A stretch of DNA of 57,802 bases from positions 1 through 57,802 of the forward strand of contig JAMONX010000003.1 of assembly GCA_027066435.1 (NCBI GenBank), given 5' to 3'. The position numbers and the translations under genes were made by a program. The stretch comes from Campylobacterales bacterium (GTDB lineage Bacteria; Campylobacterota; Campylobacteria; Campylobacterales; QNZT01). Below are positions 15,896 to 40,798 of the stretch, in pieces. Position 1 is the first letter of the stretch. The number at the start of each line of letters is the position of its first letter. Below the pieces are notes generated by a model. That model saw only the letters and a program-made list of their open reading frames with translations, did not search any database and had not been told where the DNA came from.

Positions 15896-16047
15896 ATAGG
15901 TATGTCCTTACAATATTTTGAATAATTGTATCGAAATTTGTTTATTAAAACAGGAGAATTTAGTGAAACTAGTAAAAGAATTTTTAAAAACTGTCGATAT
16001 ACTTTATAATTTGATATGAAAATAAGTAGAATTTTTAATGATTTTGA

Positions 16048-16065: not shown

Positions 16066-16086
16066 TTTGAGTTATAGTCACTCAAA
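16066..16086. promoter_or_regulatory. Inverted repeat in the leader of the cytochrome cluster
   Basis: TTTGAGT (16066-16072) and ACTCAAA (16080-16086) are exact reverse complements around 7 nt. The repeat sits just downstream of the -10 box, where a repressor would block transcription. It does not match the FNR-type boxes of the nap region. The factor is unknown. Confidence 0.5.
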
Positions 16087-16113: not shown

Positions 16114-17118
16114 ATGAAATTTGTTGGACTATTATTGACACTAGTTTTAACAGTATCAATAAGTGCAAAAGAGAGTACAAAATTAGTATGGCCTTCTCCT
16201 CCAGACCCCGCTAGAATAGAACTCCAAGGGGTTGTTACAAAGCCTGAAGATTTACAGATAGAGAAAGGACTCTTTACAAAGGTATGGGAATTTTTTGTAG
16301 GGTCTTCAAAAGAGAGTTTGGTTAAGCCATTTGGTCTTCATGTTGATGAGAATAGAAGAGTTTATATCACCGATGTAGGTTTAAGAGCAGTTATTATTTT
16401 AGATCCAACCAGAAATAAAAAATTGATTATAGATGGTTCAAAAGAGTATAAGCTTTTATCTCCTATGGATGTAGATACGGATGCTAGTGGAAATATATTT
16501 ATAGCAGATTCAGAGCAGGGGTTTATACATGTCTATGATAAAAATGGAAAATTTTTAAAAATTATAGGGAAAAAACGACTTCATAGACCAGTTGGTATTG
16601 CAGTTGATTCGAAATCAAATCTAATTTATGTGGTAGATACTTTAAAGAGTAAAATTCAAGTTTATTCAGTAGATGGAAAATATGTAAAAACACTTGGAAA
16701 AGTGGGAGCAGGTGATGGAGAGTTTAATAAGCCTACATATATCGCATTAGATGCGAATGATGGCTATCTTTATGTTAGTGATTCTATGAATCATAGAGTT
16801 CAGGTAATTGATAAAAATGGAAAATTTATTAATAAATTTGGACAATTAGGTAATACAATGGGCTCTTTTGCAAATCCTAGAGGTATAACCATAGATAAAG
16901 AAGGTCATATTTTTGTAACAGATACTACTTTTCATGCTGTACAAATATTTAATAAAAAGGGTCAGCTTCTTTTGGCATTTGGAAGTTATGGAGATCATAA
17001 AGGAGAATTTGCAATTCCTGAAGATATAGTTATTTCAAATGATGGAACTATATATGTTGCAGATTCATATAATATGAGGGTACAAGTTTTTAAATTATTA
17101 GAAGTTAAAACAAAATAG
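16114..17118 (+). CDS. Secreted NHL-repeat beta-propeller protein
   Basis: The 334-aa protein has a signal peptide (MKFVGLLLTLVLTVSISA). About six NHL-type blades follow, each with a pattern like PVGIAVDSKSNLIYVVDTLKSKIQVY or PRGITIDKEGHIFVTDTTFHAVQIF, from about residue 65 to the end. No haem motif is present. NHL propellers are commonly encoded beside multihaem cytochromes in metal-reducing bacteria, where they may scaffold the complex; that role is inferred. A 10-nt gap to the large cytochrome gene implies one transcript. Confidence 0.88.
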   Translation: MKFVGLLLTLVLTVSISAKESTKLVWPSPPDPARIELQGVVTKPEDLQIEKGLFTKVWEFFVGSSKESLVKPFGLHVDENRRVYITDVGLRAVIILDPTRNKKLIIDGSKEYKLLSPMDVDTDASGNIFIADSEQGFIHVYDKNGKFLKIIGKKRLHRPVGIAVDSKSNLIYVVDTLKSKIQVYSVDGKYVKTLGKVGAGDGEFNKPTYIALDANDGYLYVSDSMNHRVQVIDKNGKFINKFGQLGNTMGSFANPRGITIDKEGHIFVTDTTFHAVQIFNKKGQLLLAFGSYGDHKGEFAIPEDIVISNDGTIYVADSYNMRVQVFKLLEVKTK

Positions 17119-17128
17119 GGGATAGTAG

Positions 17129-19216
17129 ATGAGAGAATTAAATAAAATTATTATATTGCTTTTATTGATACAAAGTGCAATTTTTGCGATAGTTGATAAT
17201 ACAAAGCATAATTTATCTGTAACGGGACCGGGCAGTGTTAAGTCACTTACTGAGACAGAGATTTGTGTGTTTTGTCATATTCCTCACTCTGCTCAATCTG
17301 GACGGCCTTTATGGAATAGAGCAATGCCAAGTGGTTCATATACTATGTATGAAAGTGATTATCTTGACAGATTAAATTATCCAAAACCAGCAGGACTAGG
17401 AGTTGCAAAAGGGACTCCTGGTTCTCTCTCTAGGCAGTGCTTAAGTTGTCATGATGGAACTATTGCAATAGGTTCTGTTTATATGGTTAGAGGAAATATT
17501 TTAGGAAATACACTTATAAATATGAGTGGTGTAAATGCAGGAGGAATGATGCCTGCTGGTAGTGCAGGTGACATAGGTACAGATTTATCAGTTCATCATC
17601 CTGTAGGATATGAATATAATCCAAATGTTACTGTAAATTTTGGTGAAGGAAATAGACCTAGTGAACTTAAACTTTCCCCAGATGCACCAATAAGACTTTA
17701 TCAATTAGGCTCTAAAAAATATGTAGAGTGTTCTACTTGCCATGACCCGCACAGTGAAAATAAAAAGTTTTTAAGAGTGAAATCTGGAGCAAATCATGGT
17801 CAAAATGTTCGTGATACCTGTTTAGCTTGTCATGATAAAAGTGGAGGTGTCCCATGGCCTACTACTCATGAAGTTATAGGTATGCCTTATAGAGATTCTG
17901 AAGTTTTTAGCAAATATGGCACATATAGTCCAAGTGATCTTTTTTGTGTTAATTGTCATACTCCTCACAATGGAGAAGGTAAACCATATCTTTTAAGAAA
18001 AATTGAACAGCAGACTTGTTTTCAAGGGGCCGCTTCGTCAGTTAGTTTATCATCTTGTCATGGATCAGGAGCTCCTACCTCTGCTCCAGATATTGAGTCA
18101 GTACTTTCAAGACCTTATGGACACCCAGTAATGGAGATAGATGGAGTACATACAAATCTTGATGTTTTATATGGAACAGGCGTAGCTAGAAATCCATCTG
18201 GAAGTAAAGGTTTAAGCTGGAGTGATTCAAAACATGCAGAGTGTATGGATTGCCATAATCCACATAAACTAGGGAGTAAAAATCATGTAGCTGATGGTCA
18301 ATGGTACCCTTCAATCCCTACAAATAATGTTTCCCAAGTTTTAAGAGGTGTTTCTGGGGTTGAACCAGATTGGACACCTAGAGGAATTCAGCCAACATCA
18401 TTTACTACACTTGAAACTGCAACTAAAGAGTACCAAATATGTTTAAAGTGCCACTCTTATTGGGCATTAGGTAGTGCTCCAGATGGCGTTTCCTCTCATT
18501 TTCTATCCGAATATGGTATAAATGCAACTGATCAAGCTTGGGAGTTTAATCCAAATAATCGTTCAGCTCATCCTGTTGTAATGCCGTTAAATCAAATGAC
18601 TGGAAATTATGCACCAAAAGCACTCCACTCTTCTCAGATGAAGCCACCGTGGAATACAAATGTAGGAAATCAGACAATGTACTGTTCTGATTGTCATGGT
18701 TCTGATAATGAGATAGGAGGGGATGCAAGAGGCCCTCATGGTTCAAACTATAAGTTTATGTTAAAGGGTGAAAATAATCATTGGCCATTAAAGCCTGATG
18801 GGTCGTATTATACAGTATGGGGTGATGTAGATTGGAGTACAAACAATGTAAATGATGGACTTTTTTGTAGAAATTGTCATAATATATATGTAAATGAACC
18901 AGGTGGTGCTGGCTCTCATAAAATGTTTTTTGGTGGTATGGGTGGACCTTGTGTAAATTGTCATATAGCAGTTCCTCACGGGTCTCCTGTTTCAAATTTA
19001 TTGGGTTATAGAAGTTTTCCTGAACCTTACAATTATAAAGATGAACAAACTGGTGAATTGATGTTAAAAATTGATGGATATAAAAAGATTGGGGCAAATT
19101 ACTCTACGGTAGATGTTAAAAAAGTTTATTCTACTCATCCTAGTTGTAGTGGTGGTAGTACTCACGCAGCTCATTGTCATGTGACGAATACAGGTGGCTA
19201 TGATAGTTATCCATAA
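17129..19216 (+). CDS. Large multihaem cytochrome c (ten CxxCH plus two long-spaced motifs)
   Basis: A 695-aa exported protein (hydrophobic signal, residues 6-20). CxxCH motifs are at 46, 104, 201, 231, 273, 372, 438, 519, 580 and 608. Two further motifs have longer gaps: CX12CH at 297-311 and CX9CH at 673-684. Several are followed by PH (CHIPH, CHDPH, CHTPH, CHNPH), the doubled-CXXCH pattern. The N-terminal 110 residues resemble those of the pentahaem protein at 19714. It probably conducts electrons across or outside the periplasm. Electron donor and acceptor are unknown. The frame is intact. Confidence 0.9.
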   Translation: MRELNKIIILLLLIQSAIFAIVDNTKHNLSVTGPGSVKSLTETEICVFCHIPHSAQSGRPLWNRAMPSGSYTMYESDYLDRLNYPKPAGLGVAKGTPGSLSRQCLSCHDGTIAIGSVYMVRGNILGNTLINMSGVNAGGMMPAGSAGDIGTDLSVHHPVGYEYNPNVTVNFGEGNRPSELKLSPDAPIRLYQLGSKKYVECSTCHDPHSENKKFLRVKSGANHGQNVRDTCLACHDKSGGVPWPTTHEVIGMPYRDSEVFSKYGTYSPSDLFCVNCHTPHNGEGKPYLLRKIEQQTCFQGAASSVSLSSCHGSGAPTSAPDIESVLSRPYGHPVMEIDGVHTNLDVLYGTGVARNPSGSKGLSWSDSKHAECMDCHNPHKLGSKNHVADGQWYPSIPTNNVSQVLRGVSGVEPDWTPRGIQPTSFTTLETATKEYQICLKCHSYWALGSAPDGVSSHFLSEYGINATDQAWEFNPNNRSAHPVVMPLNQMTGNYAPKALHSSQMKPPWNTNVGNQTMYCSDCHGSDNEIGGDARGPHGSNYKFMLKGENNHWPLKPDGSYYTVWGDVDWSTNNVNDGLFCRNCHNIYVNEPGGAGSHKMFFGGMGGPCVNCHIAVPHGSPVSNLLGYRSFPEPYNYKDEQTGELMLKIDGYKKIGANYSTVDVKKVYSTHPSCSGGSTHAAHCHVTNTGGYDSYP

Positions 19217-19217
19217 A

Positions 19218-19667
19218 ATGAAATTTTTATTTGTAATTTTACTTGTGCCTTTTTTCTTAAATGCACAAGTTGATAATAGAGATATAAAAAAAGTCATCAT
19301 AAGTTATAATCAAGGTATTATAAAAGCAGCAAAGACAAGCAAAACAGAGCATATGAAAAGCTATGCAAAAGAAGATATAGTAAAAAAATTTCATCTTTGG
19401 ATAAAGTCTTGGCATGATAATAATCTCTTTATGGATGCAAAAATTAAAGATATAAATTTTCAAAAAGTTGAGATAAAAGATGGCAAAGCAAAAGTTACAA
19501 CAAATGAAGTTTGGATATATAGATATATTGATATCAAAACAAGAAAACAAGTTTTAGATGCGACTTTAATGACTTATAATATGAATTATATATTATCAAA
19601 AGAGAATGATAAGTGGATTATTGAAAAAATAGATGTAATATTTGAAAAGAAAGAGAAACTTAAGTGA
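19218..19667 (+). CDS. Small exported protein, probable NTF2-like fold
   Basis: A 149-aa product with a signal peptide (MKFLFVILLVPFFLNA) and a mixed alpha/beta body. The pattern of an N-terminal helix pair followed by strands ending NYILSKENDKWIIEKIDVIF resembles NTF2/SnoaL-like domains. The fold call is by pattern only. ATG 19218, one base after the cytochrome stop, gives a clean signal peptide; an in-frame GTG at 19194 would add eight residues. It lies between two cytochrome genes and may help assemble or bind them. Confidence 0.6.
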   Translation: MKFLFVILLVPFFLNAQVDNRDIKKVIISYNQGIIKAAKTSKTEHMKSYAKEDIVKKFHLWIKSWHDNNLFMDAKIKDINFQKVEIKDGKAKVTTNEVWIYRYIDIKTRKQVLDATLMTYNMNYILSKENDKWIIEKIDVIFEKKEKLK

Positions 19668-19713
19668 AGAATTTTTTTTTTAGTACGATATACAAATAAA
19701 CAGGGAAAATATA

Positions 19714-20439
19714 ATGAGGAATATTTTAAATAGAAAATATATTCTTACTATTTTATTAATGTTACCAATGGTTGCAAATAGCGGTTCTGTAGTTGGTTCA
19801 AAACATGATTTAAGTAATAGTAACTTTTATGGGGCTTTTGCTGGTTCAAGTACTCAAGTGTGTGTTTTTTGTCATACACCTCACTCCTCAAATAGTGGAC
19901 TAGCAGATGCGGGAGGTGCAAATGCTCCAATATGGAATAGAAGACTTACTAATTTAAGTGCATTTACACTATATGATTCAAGTGTAGGAACACCTAGTTC
20001 AATTTCTCTAGCTTGTCTTAGTTGTCATGATGGTGCAAGTGGTATGGGTAGAGTAAGTGCAGTAGGACCAGTAGATGCACATAATGTAATTAATGCATCT
20101 GGTACTGGTTTAGCAGGTGATAGTGGTAATGGTGGTGAGACTCCAAATTGTGCTGCTTGTCATCCATTTGCTCGACCAAGTGGTGGTACTACATATCCTA
20201 GTACTACCTGGCAAATAGGAGCTGATTTAACAGATGATCATCCAATCTCTATAAATTATGCTGCTTCCTTTGCCCATAATCCTGATGAATTTCTTTCTCA
20301 ACCAGCTAATGGGCTTAAGCTTTTTAATGGATTAATAGAGTGTGCAACTTGTCATAATGTACATGATAATGACAATGGACTCTTTTTAAGAACATCAAAT
20401 ATGGGAAGTGGGGTATGTAAATCTTGTCATATTAAGTGA
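19714..20439 (+). CDS. Pentahaem cytochrome c
   Basis: This 241-aa exported protein has five CxxCH motifs at residues 50, 101, 146, 210 and 235. It shares with the upstream large cytochrome the order KH(D/N)LS, CVFCH.PHS, WNR, TLYDS/TMYES and CLSCHDG, so the two arose from a common ancestor. It is probably a smaller periplasmic or surface electron carrier working with the larger one. The 3' end overlaps convergent hemW by 8 nt with no terminator visible. Confidence 0.9.
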   Translation: MRNILNRKYILTILLMLPMVANSGSVVGSKHDLSNSNFYGAFAGSSTQVCVFCHTPHSSNSGLADAGGANAPIWNRRLTNLSAFTLYDSSVGTPSSISLACLSCHDGASGMGRVSAVGPVDAHNVINASGTGLAGDSGNGGETPNCAACHPFARPSGGTTYPSTTWQIGADLTDDHPISINYAASFAHNPDEFLSQPANGLKLFNGLIECATCHNVHDNDNGLFLRTSNMGSGVCKSCHIK

Positions 20440-37984: not shown

Positions 37985-40798
37985 CTATGCTTTATAAATT
38001 TTTACAGCACATTTTTTAAAGTCTGTTTGTTTTGACATAGGACATGTCGCATCTAAACATACTTTATTGATAAATACTTTTTCATCAAACCATGGTACAA
38101 AAACAAGACCTTCTGGAGTTCTATTTCTTCCTCTAGTTTCAACTCTAGCTTTTACTTTACCACGACGACTCTCAACCCAAGCCAATTGTCCCTGTTTTAG
38201 TCCTAGTTTTTTAGCATTGTTTGGATGCATATAACATAGAGCTTCAGGAACCGCACGATAGAGTTCTGGAACTCTCATAGTCATTGTACCACTATGCCAG
38301 TGTTCTAACACACGACCAGTACATAACCATATAGGATATTTGCTATCTGGCATCTCTGGTGGATCCATATATGGTCTAGCAAATATTTTAGCTTTATTTT
38401 TAAGAGCTTTTTTACCAAGAGATTTATCAGGACCACTTAAATCACCTTGAAGAAGATTTTTAGCTAGTTTACCATAAAACGCAAAGTCACCAGTATTTGC
38501 TTTTTTTGCATATGGGTCATATTTAGCGTTGAATCTCCACTGTGTCTCTTTACCATCGACTACAGGCCATTTAAGTCCTCTAACTTTATGATAAACATCA
38601 AACGGTGCCAAATCATGTCCGTGTCCTCTTCCAAAGTCTGCATACTCTTCAAATAGGTATTTATGAATAAAAAAGCCATAACCTTTCCATTCTTTACCAT
38701 CTGAACCGATAACTTTTCTGCTATCTCCATTTGTATCACTATCATCAAAACCTGCACCAATTGGATCATTTGCTTTGTATGATTTTGCTCTATCATTTGC
38801 AAATAGGATGTCATACATAGTTGTGTTTTCAGTATATCCCATCTCTTTTGCTTTTGCTACAACATCAGGAAGTCCTTTAGGAGTACCATCTTTGTTTTTA
38901 CCTCTTAATGGTTGTGCACCCCAGACATCTTTAACTGTAAATCTTTTTGATAGTTCAACCCATTGCCAAGTATCACTCATAGAATCACCTACAGGTAGTA
39001 CTTGTTGTCTCCAGTGTTGAGTTCTTCTTTCAGCATTTCCATATGCTCCCCATTTCTCATAAATCATCGCTGAAGGGAGAATAAGATCAGCAACTTTTGC
39101 TGAAATTCCAGGATATCCATCAGAGCAGACGATGAAGTTATCCATCTCTCTTGCCGCTTTTATCCAGTGATTTGCAGATGCAGAATCTTGATATGGATTA
39201 CATACATTTACCCAAGCAAATTTAACAACACCATCTTCAATATCTCTATGAATTTTCATGATATGTTGATTTCCTACTGGGTTTAGAGTACCACTAGGTA
39301 CTTTCCATACATTTTCAACGATTTTTCTATGTTTTCCACTTTTGACCATCATATCAGCTGGAAGTCTATGACAAAATGTTCCAACTTCTCTTGCAGTTCC
39401 ACAAGCACTTGGTTGTCCAGTTAGTGAAAATGCTCCACTACCAGGTCTTGCTTGTTTATTTAGCATAAAGTGAACATTATATGCAAGTGTATTTACCCAA
39501 GTACCACGAGTATGTTGGTTCATACCCATTGTCCAAAAGCTTACAACTTTTCTATTTTTTTCTATATAGAGATTAGCTAATGCTTGTAGTTTTTTCTTAA
39601 AACTATCAATGCTTTCATTTGGATCACCTTTAGAAATCTTTGCTACATAATCAAGTGTATATGGAGCTAAAGATTTTTTATACTCCTCAAATGATATATG
39701 CCAGTGTTTTAATCCAGCAGGTTTTTGAACCATTTTGTCGCCAGCTTTGTATCCATAAGGAGCAAGTGCTGGACCCTCTTTTTCAGAGACAGTTATCTCC
39801 ATCTCTTTGTTTATAATCTCCATCTCAGCAGCACTATATTTGCCATCTTTGAGTGATTTCTCACCTTTTCTTCTCATACCATAACCCATATTCACAGGAC
39901 TTGCACAAAAAACGATATGTTTTTTTATAAAATCCCAATCAATAGCTTCAGGATGATTATAAACTATCTCTCTAGCGATGTAGTTCCAAAGAGCTAAATC
40001 AGTATTTGGTGAGAATATAATCTCAATATCAGCAATATCAGAAGTCCTATGAGTATAAGTTGAGATATTTACAACTTTAACACGATCTGGGTTTGATAAT
40101 TTTCTATCTGTAACTCTTGACCACAAAATAGGATGCATCTCTGCCATATTTGAACCCCAAGATACAACGGTGTCTGTAAGCTCTATATCATCATAACAAC
40201 CAGATGGTTCATCAATACCAAATGTTTGGTAAAAACCAACAACAGCAGATGCCATACAGTGTCTAGCATTTGGATCAATTGCATTTGATCTAAATCCACC
40301 TTTCATCATCTTTTGTGCAGCATAGCCCTCCATAACAGTATATTGACCAGATGCAAATACAGCTACACCTTCAGGTCCACTAGCTTTTAGTGCTTTTTTG
40401 ATATTGACTTCCATCTCATCAAAAGCTCTCTCCCAGCTAACAGGTGCAAATTTACCTTTTTTATCAAATTTGCCATCAGCACCAACTCTTAAAAGTGGCT
40501 GAGTTAGTCTATCTTCACCGTACATAATCTTGGCATTAAAATAACCTTTAATACAGTTAAGACCTCTATTTACTGGAGCAGCAGGGTCACCTTTAACAGC
40601 AACAATCTTACCACCTTTAGTAGCTAACATGATACCACAGCCAGTACCACAAAATCTACACGCAGCTTTATCCCATCTCCACTCTTTCTGACCAGCAACC
40701 GCTGCTGCTTCAGCCTCTTTAGGAATGGATATACCAACAGCCGCTGCCGCAGTTGCCGCCGCCGTCGTCTTCAAAAAATTTCGTCTTGAAATTGACAT
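37985..40798 (-). CDS. napA: Periplasmic nitrate reductase catalytic subunit
   Basis: NapA reduces nitrate to nitrite in the periplasm with a bis-MGD molybdenum centre. The 937-aa protein has a twin-arginine signal ([19 protein letters not shown]), a 4Fe-4S site ([12 protein letters not shown] through GLNCIKGYF), and the Mo-ligand Cys in [14 protein letters not shown]. Campylobacterota NapA has inserts that make it longer than the E. coli form (828 aa). ATG 40798 has AGGAGG directly upstream; the longer frame to 40834 does not. A CRP/FNR-type box lies about 75 nt upstream (40870-40883). Confidence 0.98.

Follow-up and report, generated by a model that had tools for sequence, protein, structure and literature searches.

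An OmcE-related cytochrome unit between tatB and hemW

We analysed a 57,802-nucleotide stretch of a Campylobacterales genome (contig JAMONX010000003.1 of assembly GCA_027066435.1), hereafter the window, focusing on four plus-strand open reading frames (ORFs) at 16114-20439 that are separated by gaps of 10, 1 and 46 bp. They encode an NHL propeller protein, a large multihaem cytochrome (here BIG), an NTF2-like protein and a five-haem cytochrome (here PENTA). Both cytochromes are homologous to OmcE, a filament-forming surface cytochrome, and the NHL, BIG and NTF2-like genes belong to a module that is conserved in relatives and split in this genome, the remainder lying on two other contigs, C59 and C60. 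An earlier note on this DNA had described four adjacent genes for exported proteins; the coordinates, the tight spacing and a hydrophobic, Sec-signal-like N-terminal segment in all four products (read by eye) bear this out, as does a PF01436 match for its NHL label. The unit is flanked by a divergent tatB and by hemW, a convergent gene that shares 8 bp with the 3' end of the unit; both were named from TatA_B_E and Radical_SAM matches together with gene order. Names beginning with Uet refer to the undecahaem electron transfer (Uet) cluster discussed below.

16114..17118, plus strand: exported NHL beta-propeller protein, 334 amino acids (aa), UetH/I-like (PF01436, E 1.5e-35)
17129..19216, plus strand: BIG, 695-aa cytochrome with ten CXXCH and one CX12CH, UetJ-like (motif count, alignment)
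17129..17839, plus strand: OmcE-like head of BIG, residues 1-237 (7tfs, E 2.6e-25 over residues 9-237)
18017..18061, plus strand: atypical haem site C297-X12-C310-H311 of BIG (conserved among aligned relatives)
19218..19667, plus strand: exported NTF2-like protein of 149 aa when read from the ATG, the mechanical ORF starting at 19194 (family matches, position after BIG)
19714..20439, plus strand: PENTA, OmcE-like cytochrome, 241 aa, five CXXCH (7tfs, E 6.7e-26)
20149..20163, plus strand: fifth haem site of PENTA, C146-AA-C149-H150, between OmcE haems 2 and 3 (motif, alignment)

Searching solved structures with phmmer (E up to 1), we found two matches for each cytochrome and no others, namely 7tfs and 9yuq, with E values of 2.6e-25 and 4.5e-17 for BIG and 6.7e-26 and 6.1e-18 for PENTA. 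The first of these, PDB 7TFS, is described as OmcE in PMC12954529 and PMC11936953 and comes from the Geobacter sulfurreducens filament, while in 9yuq a single 'putative multiheme cytochrome c' is present as 16 chains; both are full-length relatives of PENTA and of the BIG head. Two alignment rows to an unrelated toxin light chain (E 1.6-1.7) were disregarded as chance. Profile searches strengthened the relationship to OmcE for both proteins, and comparison of the BIG family with the OmcE-like family, profile against profile, gave E 4.8e-50 over BIG residues 1-242. In sequence terms, BIG consists of an OmcE-like head joined to a tail with seven haems. The earlier note had overlooked the CX12CH site of BIG.

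Conservation of the haem ligands follows the same pattern. Across 18 of 18 OmcE-like rows, the four haem sites are invariant, together with four and only four other histidines (H31, H57, H176 and H217 in PENTA numbering), as in OmcE itself, where four CXXCH motifs and four invariant non-proximal histidines provide the number needed for a bis-His tetrahaem protein. For OmcE and OmcS, PMC9473688 describes a haem ligand histidine supplied by the neighbouring subunit. The BIG head likewise keeps all four sites and four extra histidines (H27, H53, H157, H208) in 22/22 rows. Differences from OmcE are the fifth haem of PENTA, the attachment of a seven-haem tail to the OmcE-like part of BIG, and polymerization, which is putative here. 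All ten CXXCH motifs of BIG are invariant across the 22 aligned rows, and the first one after the head, CVNCHTPH, resembles the first haem site of OmcE; the extreme C-terminal Cys/CysHis varies across the family. The eleventh site reads CX12CH in 20 of the 22 rows; locus L040 has CX13CH, and the Uet-like locus L066 an ordinary CXXCH. CX12CH is also present in six more BIG sequences (L029, L043, L047, L051, L053, L063) and in a paralogue on contig C154, and it was not found in the shorter Nitrospirota homologues that have no OmcE head.

The near-invariance of this CX12CH haem could suggest a catalytic multihaem enzyme, for example of the sulfite or nitrite type, with the atypical haem as the active site as in SirA/MccA and the OmcE-like parts serving as wiring only. 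In MccA/SirA, atypical CX15CH or CX12NKGCH haems are present and may be catalytic, according to PMC6976685, and the BIG profile weakly matches both NrfA and nitrite reductases of the octahaem type (E 5e-5 to 2e-3). These matches are, however, limited to about 60-80 residues each, no MccA or sulfite reductase is among the BIG profile matches listed, the site in question is an ordinary CXXCH in the Uet-like homologue, and for the 11 haems there are fourteen non-proximal histidines that at least 21 of the 22 rows retain. We therefore regard an enzymatic role of BIG as quite unlikely.

The fifth haem site of PENTA has counterparts in L029, L099 and L100, and L044, too, has an additional CXXCH between haems 2 and 3. 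In the tree, PENTA is placed with these four and the Uet-type proteins (support 98/95), the five-haem group as a single branch being weakly supported (65/90). We rejected recent duplication of this genome's tandem OmcE-like genes as the origin of PENTA, as the tree separates PENTA from those genes on C59. L099 and L100, which share about 50% identity with PENTA, are stand-alone five-haem OmcE-like genes from Persephonella and Aquificaceae genomes.

The NHL protein is similar to that of a Uet-like cluster (32%, E 9e-56) and scores below the cut-off of the ScyF NCBIfam equivalog (175 bits versus 350). The NTF2 label of the earlier note is weak for the window protein, which matched no family above cut-off, but among 16 family members three matched an NTF2-like family of Pfam (best E 4.7e-4) and nine matched ARC6-like IMS (best E 9e-5). 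Two further features had been proposed upstream of the NHL gene.

15983..16010, plus strand: best sigma-70-like match (TTTAAA, 16 nt, TATAAT), candidate only
16066..16086, no strand: 7-bp perfect inverted repeat with a 7-bp spacer, at chance level by shuffling

Neither carries weight as evidence for a promoter of the unit's own or for an operator. Promoter-like sites numbered 27 compared with 27.6 expected in shuffled sequence, and the single inverted repeat has to be set against at least one in 63% of 500 shuffles (mean 1.39); among the loci compared, its motif was confined to the window region (window, L009, L018). Elsewhere, the window encodes HobA (PF12163, E 6.5e-71), which is typical of Campylobacterota and fits this phylum, and the periplasmic nitrate reductase NapA (37988-40792, minus strand; 1372 bits versus a cut-off of 930).

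A conserved module, split in this genome

In its full form, the module runs in the order OmcE-like cytochrome, NHL lipoprotein, sometimes a second OmcE-like cytochrome, peptidyl-prolyl isomerase (PPIase), porin-like protein, NHL protein, BIG, NTF2-like protein and CcsBA. Searching named genomes with BIG, we found 46 loci, 28 of them scoring at least 400 bits, and 24 of these 28 had at least 1 kb of upstream sequence. An NHL gene lies directly upstream of BIG in 21/24 (exceptions L035, L048 and L063) and a porin-like gene within 1.5 kb in 17/24, with too little room in L038 and L041. The NTF2-like gene comes next after BIG in 13 of the 23 loci with at least 500 bp downstream, and additionally in L042 as a fused frame and in L051 with an overlapping start; the fusion is likely a frame error, because neighbouring genes on the L042 contig are broken. 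The synteny check suggested in the earlier note thus showed that the order NHL-BIG-NTF2-like recurs, as part of a larger module, but that the NTF2-like gene does not follow BIG everywhere. Complete modules are found in Campylobacterota genomes of one or few contigs (L087-L089, L092) and also in L096, and 11-haem and 8-haem cytochromes often lie near the module (L087-L096).

The module is carried by Campylobacterota and Aquificota and, in other phyla, by single bins. Within Campylobacterota, BIG was matched at E<=1e-30 in 11/397 genomes and 6/68 genera (4/22 within the family), one of the 11 genomes, G199, qualifying solely through an OmcE-like tetrahaem protein; the module is indeed no standard part of this phylum, as the earlier note had supposed. 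A tree of BIG (31 rows, including L087 and L096, the two that passed a motif filter out of eight further loci offered) requires three changes for Campylobacterota and two for Aquificota, and several of its forks are open. The single Bacteroidota and Nitrospirota rows are possible binning errors. Transfer of BIG between phyla appears likely from this tree.

Relatives of BIG also occur outside the module. A second paralogue in this genome (C154, 717-5398, in L022) has 667 aa, is 59% identical and retains the CX12CH; it follows an 889-aa FG-GAP repeat lipoprotein, with neither NHL nor porin gene, and L035 is a pair of the same type. Homologues of the BIG tail with nine haems and no OmcE head were found in Nitrospirota and Deferribacterota bins (L055-L061), four of which (L055, L056, L058, L061) adjoin 26- and 15/16-haem cytochromes.

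In the genome studied here, the module is divided. Three tandem OmcE-like genes with 99.6% and 99.8% nucleotide identity occupy the end of C59 (L021 15328-17835), and the start of C60 carries the tail of an OmcE-like gene (L024 1-191), followed by genes for the NHL lipoprotein, the PPIase, the porin-like protein and, adjacent to the latter, CcsBA. The OmcE-like copies at these contig ends probably stem from an array of filament genes that is longer than it appears or has been collapsed. The NHL, BIG and NTF2-like genes are missing from the C59/C60 portion and are located in the window together with PENTA, whereas the same-genus genome G249 has OmcE, NHL lipoprotein, PPIase, porin, NHL and BIG contiguously, running to the contig end. 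The earlier note had also recommended looking for a porin gene elsewhere in the genome, and the one on C60 answers this. As tatB abuts hemW in four relatives (G249, G405, G047 and G410, out of seven hemW stretches examined), the window unit was most likely inserted between these two genes; the other three stretches (L139-L141) have different neighbours, with no tatB alongside hemW.

A block lying apart from the rest of its module, at a site that is empty in relatives, might be a selfish or decaying piece of DNA that has no function in this strain. Each of the four frames is open, however, with the family-conserved haem sites intact, and split versions exist in two genomes with BIG and PENTA together in both: in G411, which is split differently, there is no BIG between the NHL and NTF2-like genes, and BIG and PENTA lie elsewhere, still as neighbours (L029). 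We thus consider a functionless fragment very unlikely.

Further multihaem genes accompany the dispersed parts. On contig C125 (887-4076, in L023), a degenerate OmcE-like gene (CHTPH changed to CHPPI) sits beside an 11-haem and an 8-haem cytochrome, both of types that flank the module in other genomes, and right after CcsBA on C60 (7880-11802, minus strand, in L024) there are four more multihaem cytochromes with 7, 11, 3 and 4 haems. The CcsBA gene itself (L024 4559-7741) encodes the sole PF01578 protein found in this genome, which contains many multihaem cytochromes. A dedicated synthase for the CX12CH haem, modelled on CcsA1 of Wolinella, which PMC6976685 links with a CX15CH haem, is for this reason not supported.

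Likeness to Uet and other surface systems

The closest named system is Uet, a likeness judged from the published gene list and a Uet-like gammaproteobacterial locus. PMC10734462 and PMC12575090 describe the cluster in 'Ca. Tenderia electrophaga' and Gallionellaceae, and the former lists UetA (tetrahaem), UetB (PPIase), UetC (porin), UetDEG (trihaem), UetHI (NHL) and UetJ (11-haem). Common to both systems are a large cytochrome of the UetJ type, preceded by an NHL gene, as well as a PPIase, NHL genes, a porin-like gene and an extracellular cytochrome with four haems. In the gammaproteobacterial locus L066/L160, which we call Uet-like from gene content, the tetrahaem gene is OmcE-like, and its product, like the NHL, PPIase and 11-haem proteins, resembles its counterpart in this genome; BIG aligns along its length with the L066 11-haem protein (31% identity in the best segment, 38% in the multiple alignment). 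Homologues of UetA, UetB and UetHI are all present in our genome, the NHL gene in the window and the rest on C59/C60, not adjoining the window unit. Differences are equally clear. The four trihaem-type cytochromes, found in 7/7 proteobacterial loci, were detected in 0/36 module loci and 0/8 stretches of this genome (E<=1e-5), the porin-like protein gave no hit to the Uet-like porin, the eleventh haem site is CX12CH, the module is split here, and the Campylobacterota form adds the NTF2-like protein and CcsBA. On gene content, the module is predicted to work like Uet, yet it lacks one feature of membership, the trihaem cytochromes.

Porin-cytochrome conduits (MtrCAB/MtoAB, OetABI) also share the placement of a porin-like gene next to multihaem cytochromes, and according to PMC10553843 a filament cytochrome is paired with a porin conduit in syntrophic sulfate reducers, too. 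No protein searched reached the curated Mtr/Dms cut-offs (MtrA/DmsE, MtrB, MtrC/OmcA), the 11-haem protein of C125 coming nearest to the DmsE family (138 bits versus 192), and the porin-like protein was not MtrB-like in any search made. This 583-aa protein occupies the UetC position and was assigned from position, size, C-terminal residues and a crude strand-alternation score, which is 4.3-5.5 per 100 residues in ten homologues compared with a mean of 3.2 and a maximum of 4.4 in 30 window ORFs. A further parallel, by description, is offered by DFE_0448-0451 and DFE_0461-0465 of Desulfovibrio ferrophilus, in which multihaem cytochromes lie beside NHL propellers; PMC9769857 proposes them at the outer surface and reports that deletion did not impair Fe(III) oxide reduction.

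Surface electron transfer, as the earlier note had surmised, agrees well with the OmcE matches of both cytochromes and with the linkage of porin-like, PPIase and multihaem genes in relatives. Its comparison with metal reducers is only partly apt, as the closest gene set is one proposed for electron uptake. BIG and PENTA could instead be soluble periplasmic electron carriers or stores that form no filament and do not cross the outer membrane: inspection of the window proteins by eye showed neither a lipobox nor an anchor, and many Paired_CXXCH multihaem proteins are periplasmic. Against this, the OmcE matches are specific and span the whole head, and the genes are linked with those for a porin-like protein and a PPIase, so that we judge soluble carriers unlikely.

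A candidate anchor for cytochrome wires

Overall, we consider the window unit likely to be one half, now displaced, of an OmcE-type system that resembles Uet and moves electrons between the cell and its exterior. OmcE-like subunits from the three tandem C59 genes, and perhaps PENTA too, would exit via the porin-like barrel and stack into a haem wire, with the PPIase and the two NHL propellers assisting subunit export or assembly. BIG would sit at the barrel, its OmcE-like head capping the wire and its seven-haem tail passing electrons on to multihaem cytochromes of the periplasm, for example the 11-/8-haem pair of C125. The NTF2-like protein would probably aid the folding or docking of BIG, and PENTA would be a special subunit beside it. 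BIG as the cell-end anchor of an OmcE-type wire is an unproven prediction, for which the best argument is that BIG is an OmcE-like subunit with extra haems on one side only; the likeness of CVNCHTPH to the first OmcE haem site is part of this argument.

Several points weigh against this interpretation. Structure prediction gave no usable model for BIG (22 rows, mean pLDDT 43.7) or PENTA (18 rows, mean pLDDT 35.0); the porin-like protein matched no Pfam or NCBIfam family, solved structure or Uet-like porin; the NTF2-like gene is absent after BIG in eight loci (L029, L030, L031, L035, L043, L044, L048, L063); and CcsBA is probably housekeeping, being the only PF01578 protein found. In addition, most relatives are draft bins, and PMC11077965 presents the physiological role of cytochrome filaments in G. 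sulfurreducens as disputed.

As to the direction of transfer, the NapA, three haem-copper oxidase-family proteins and NiFe hydrogenases of the genome mean that electrons could flow either way. Given this equipment and the Uet precedent, a cathode oxidizer, we lean slightly towards uptake; a manganese-oxide-reducing Sulfurimonas, mentioned in PMC11748539, would favour discharge.

Far more tentatively, and with more doubt than conviction, BIG and UetJ might be the missing cell-end anchor of OmcE-type wires, uniting wire subunit and outer-membrane haem conduit in one chain. BIG would then bind the last OmcE-like subunit as another subunit would, the step from haem 4 to haem 5 (CVNCHTPH) would copy the intersubunit contact, PENTA would be a branching or first subunit, and the whole might be a general, horizontally shared wiring of vent lithotrophs to minerals or neighbours.

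Our literature search found no account of such a module in Campylobacterota or Aquificota, with earlier mention possible in Baquero et al. 2023 and Eddie et al. 2022. The anchoring of cytochrome wires to the cell and their connection to the membranes are stated as unresolved in PMC12307469. BIG, with its OmcE-like subunit joined to a conduit-like cytochrome, provides a named candidate for this question, and with the module, electron exchange at the cell surface in the manner of Uet would extend to Campylobacterota and Aquificota, the hydrogen and sulfur lithotrophs of vents.

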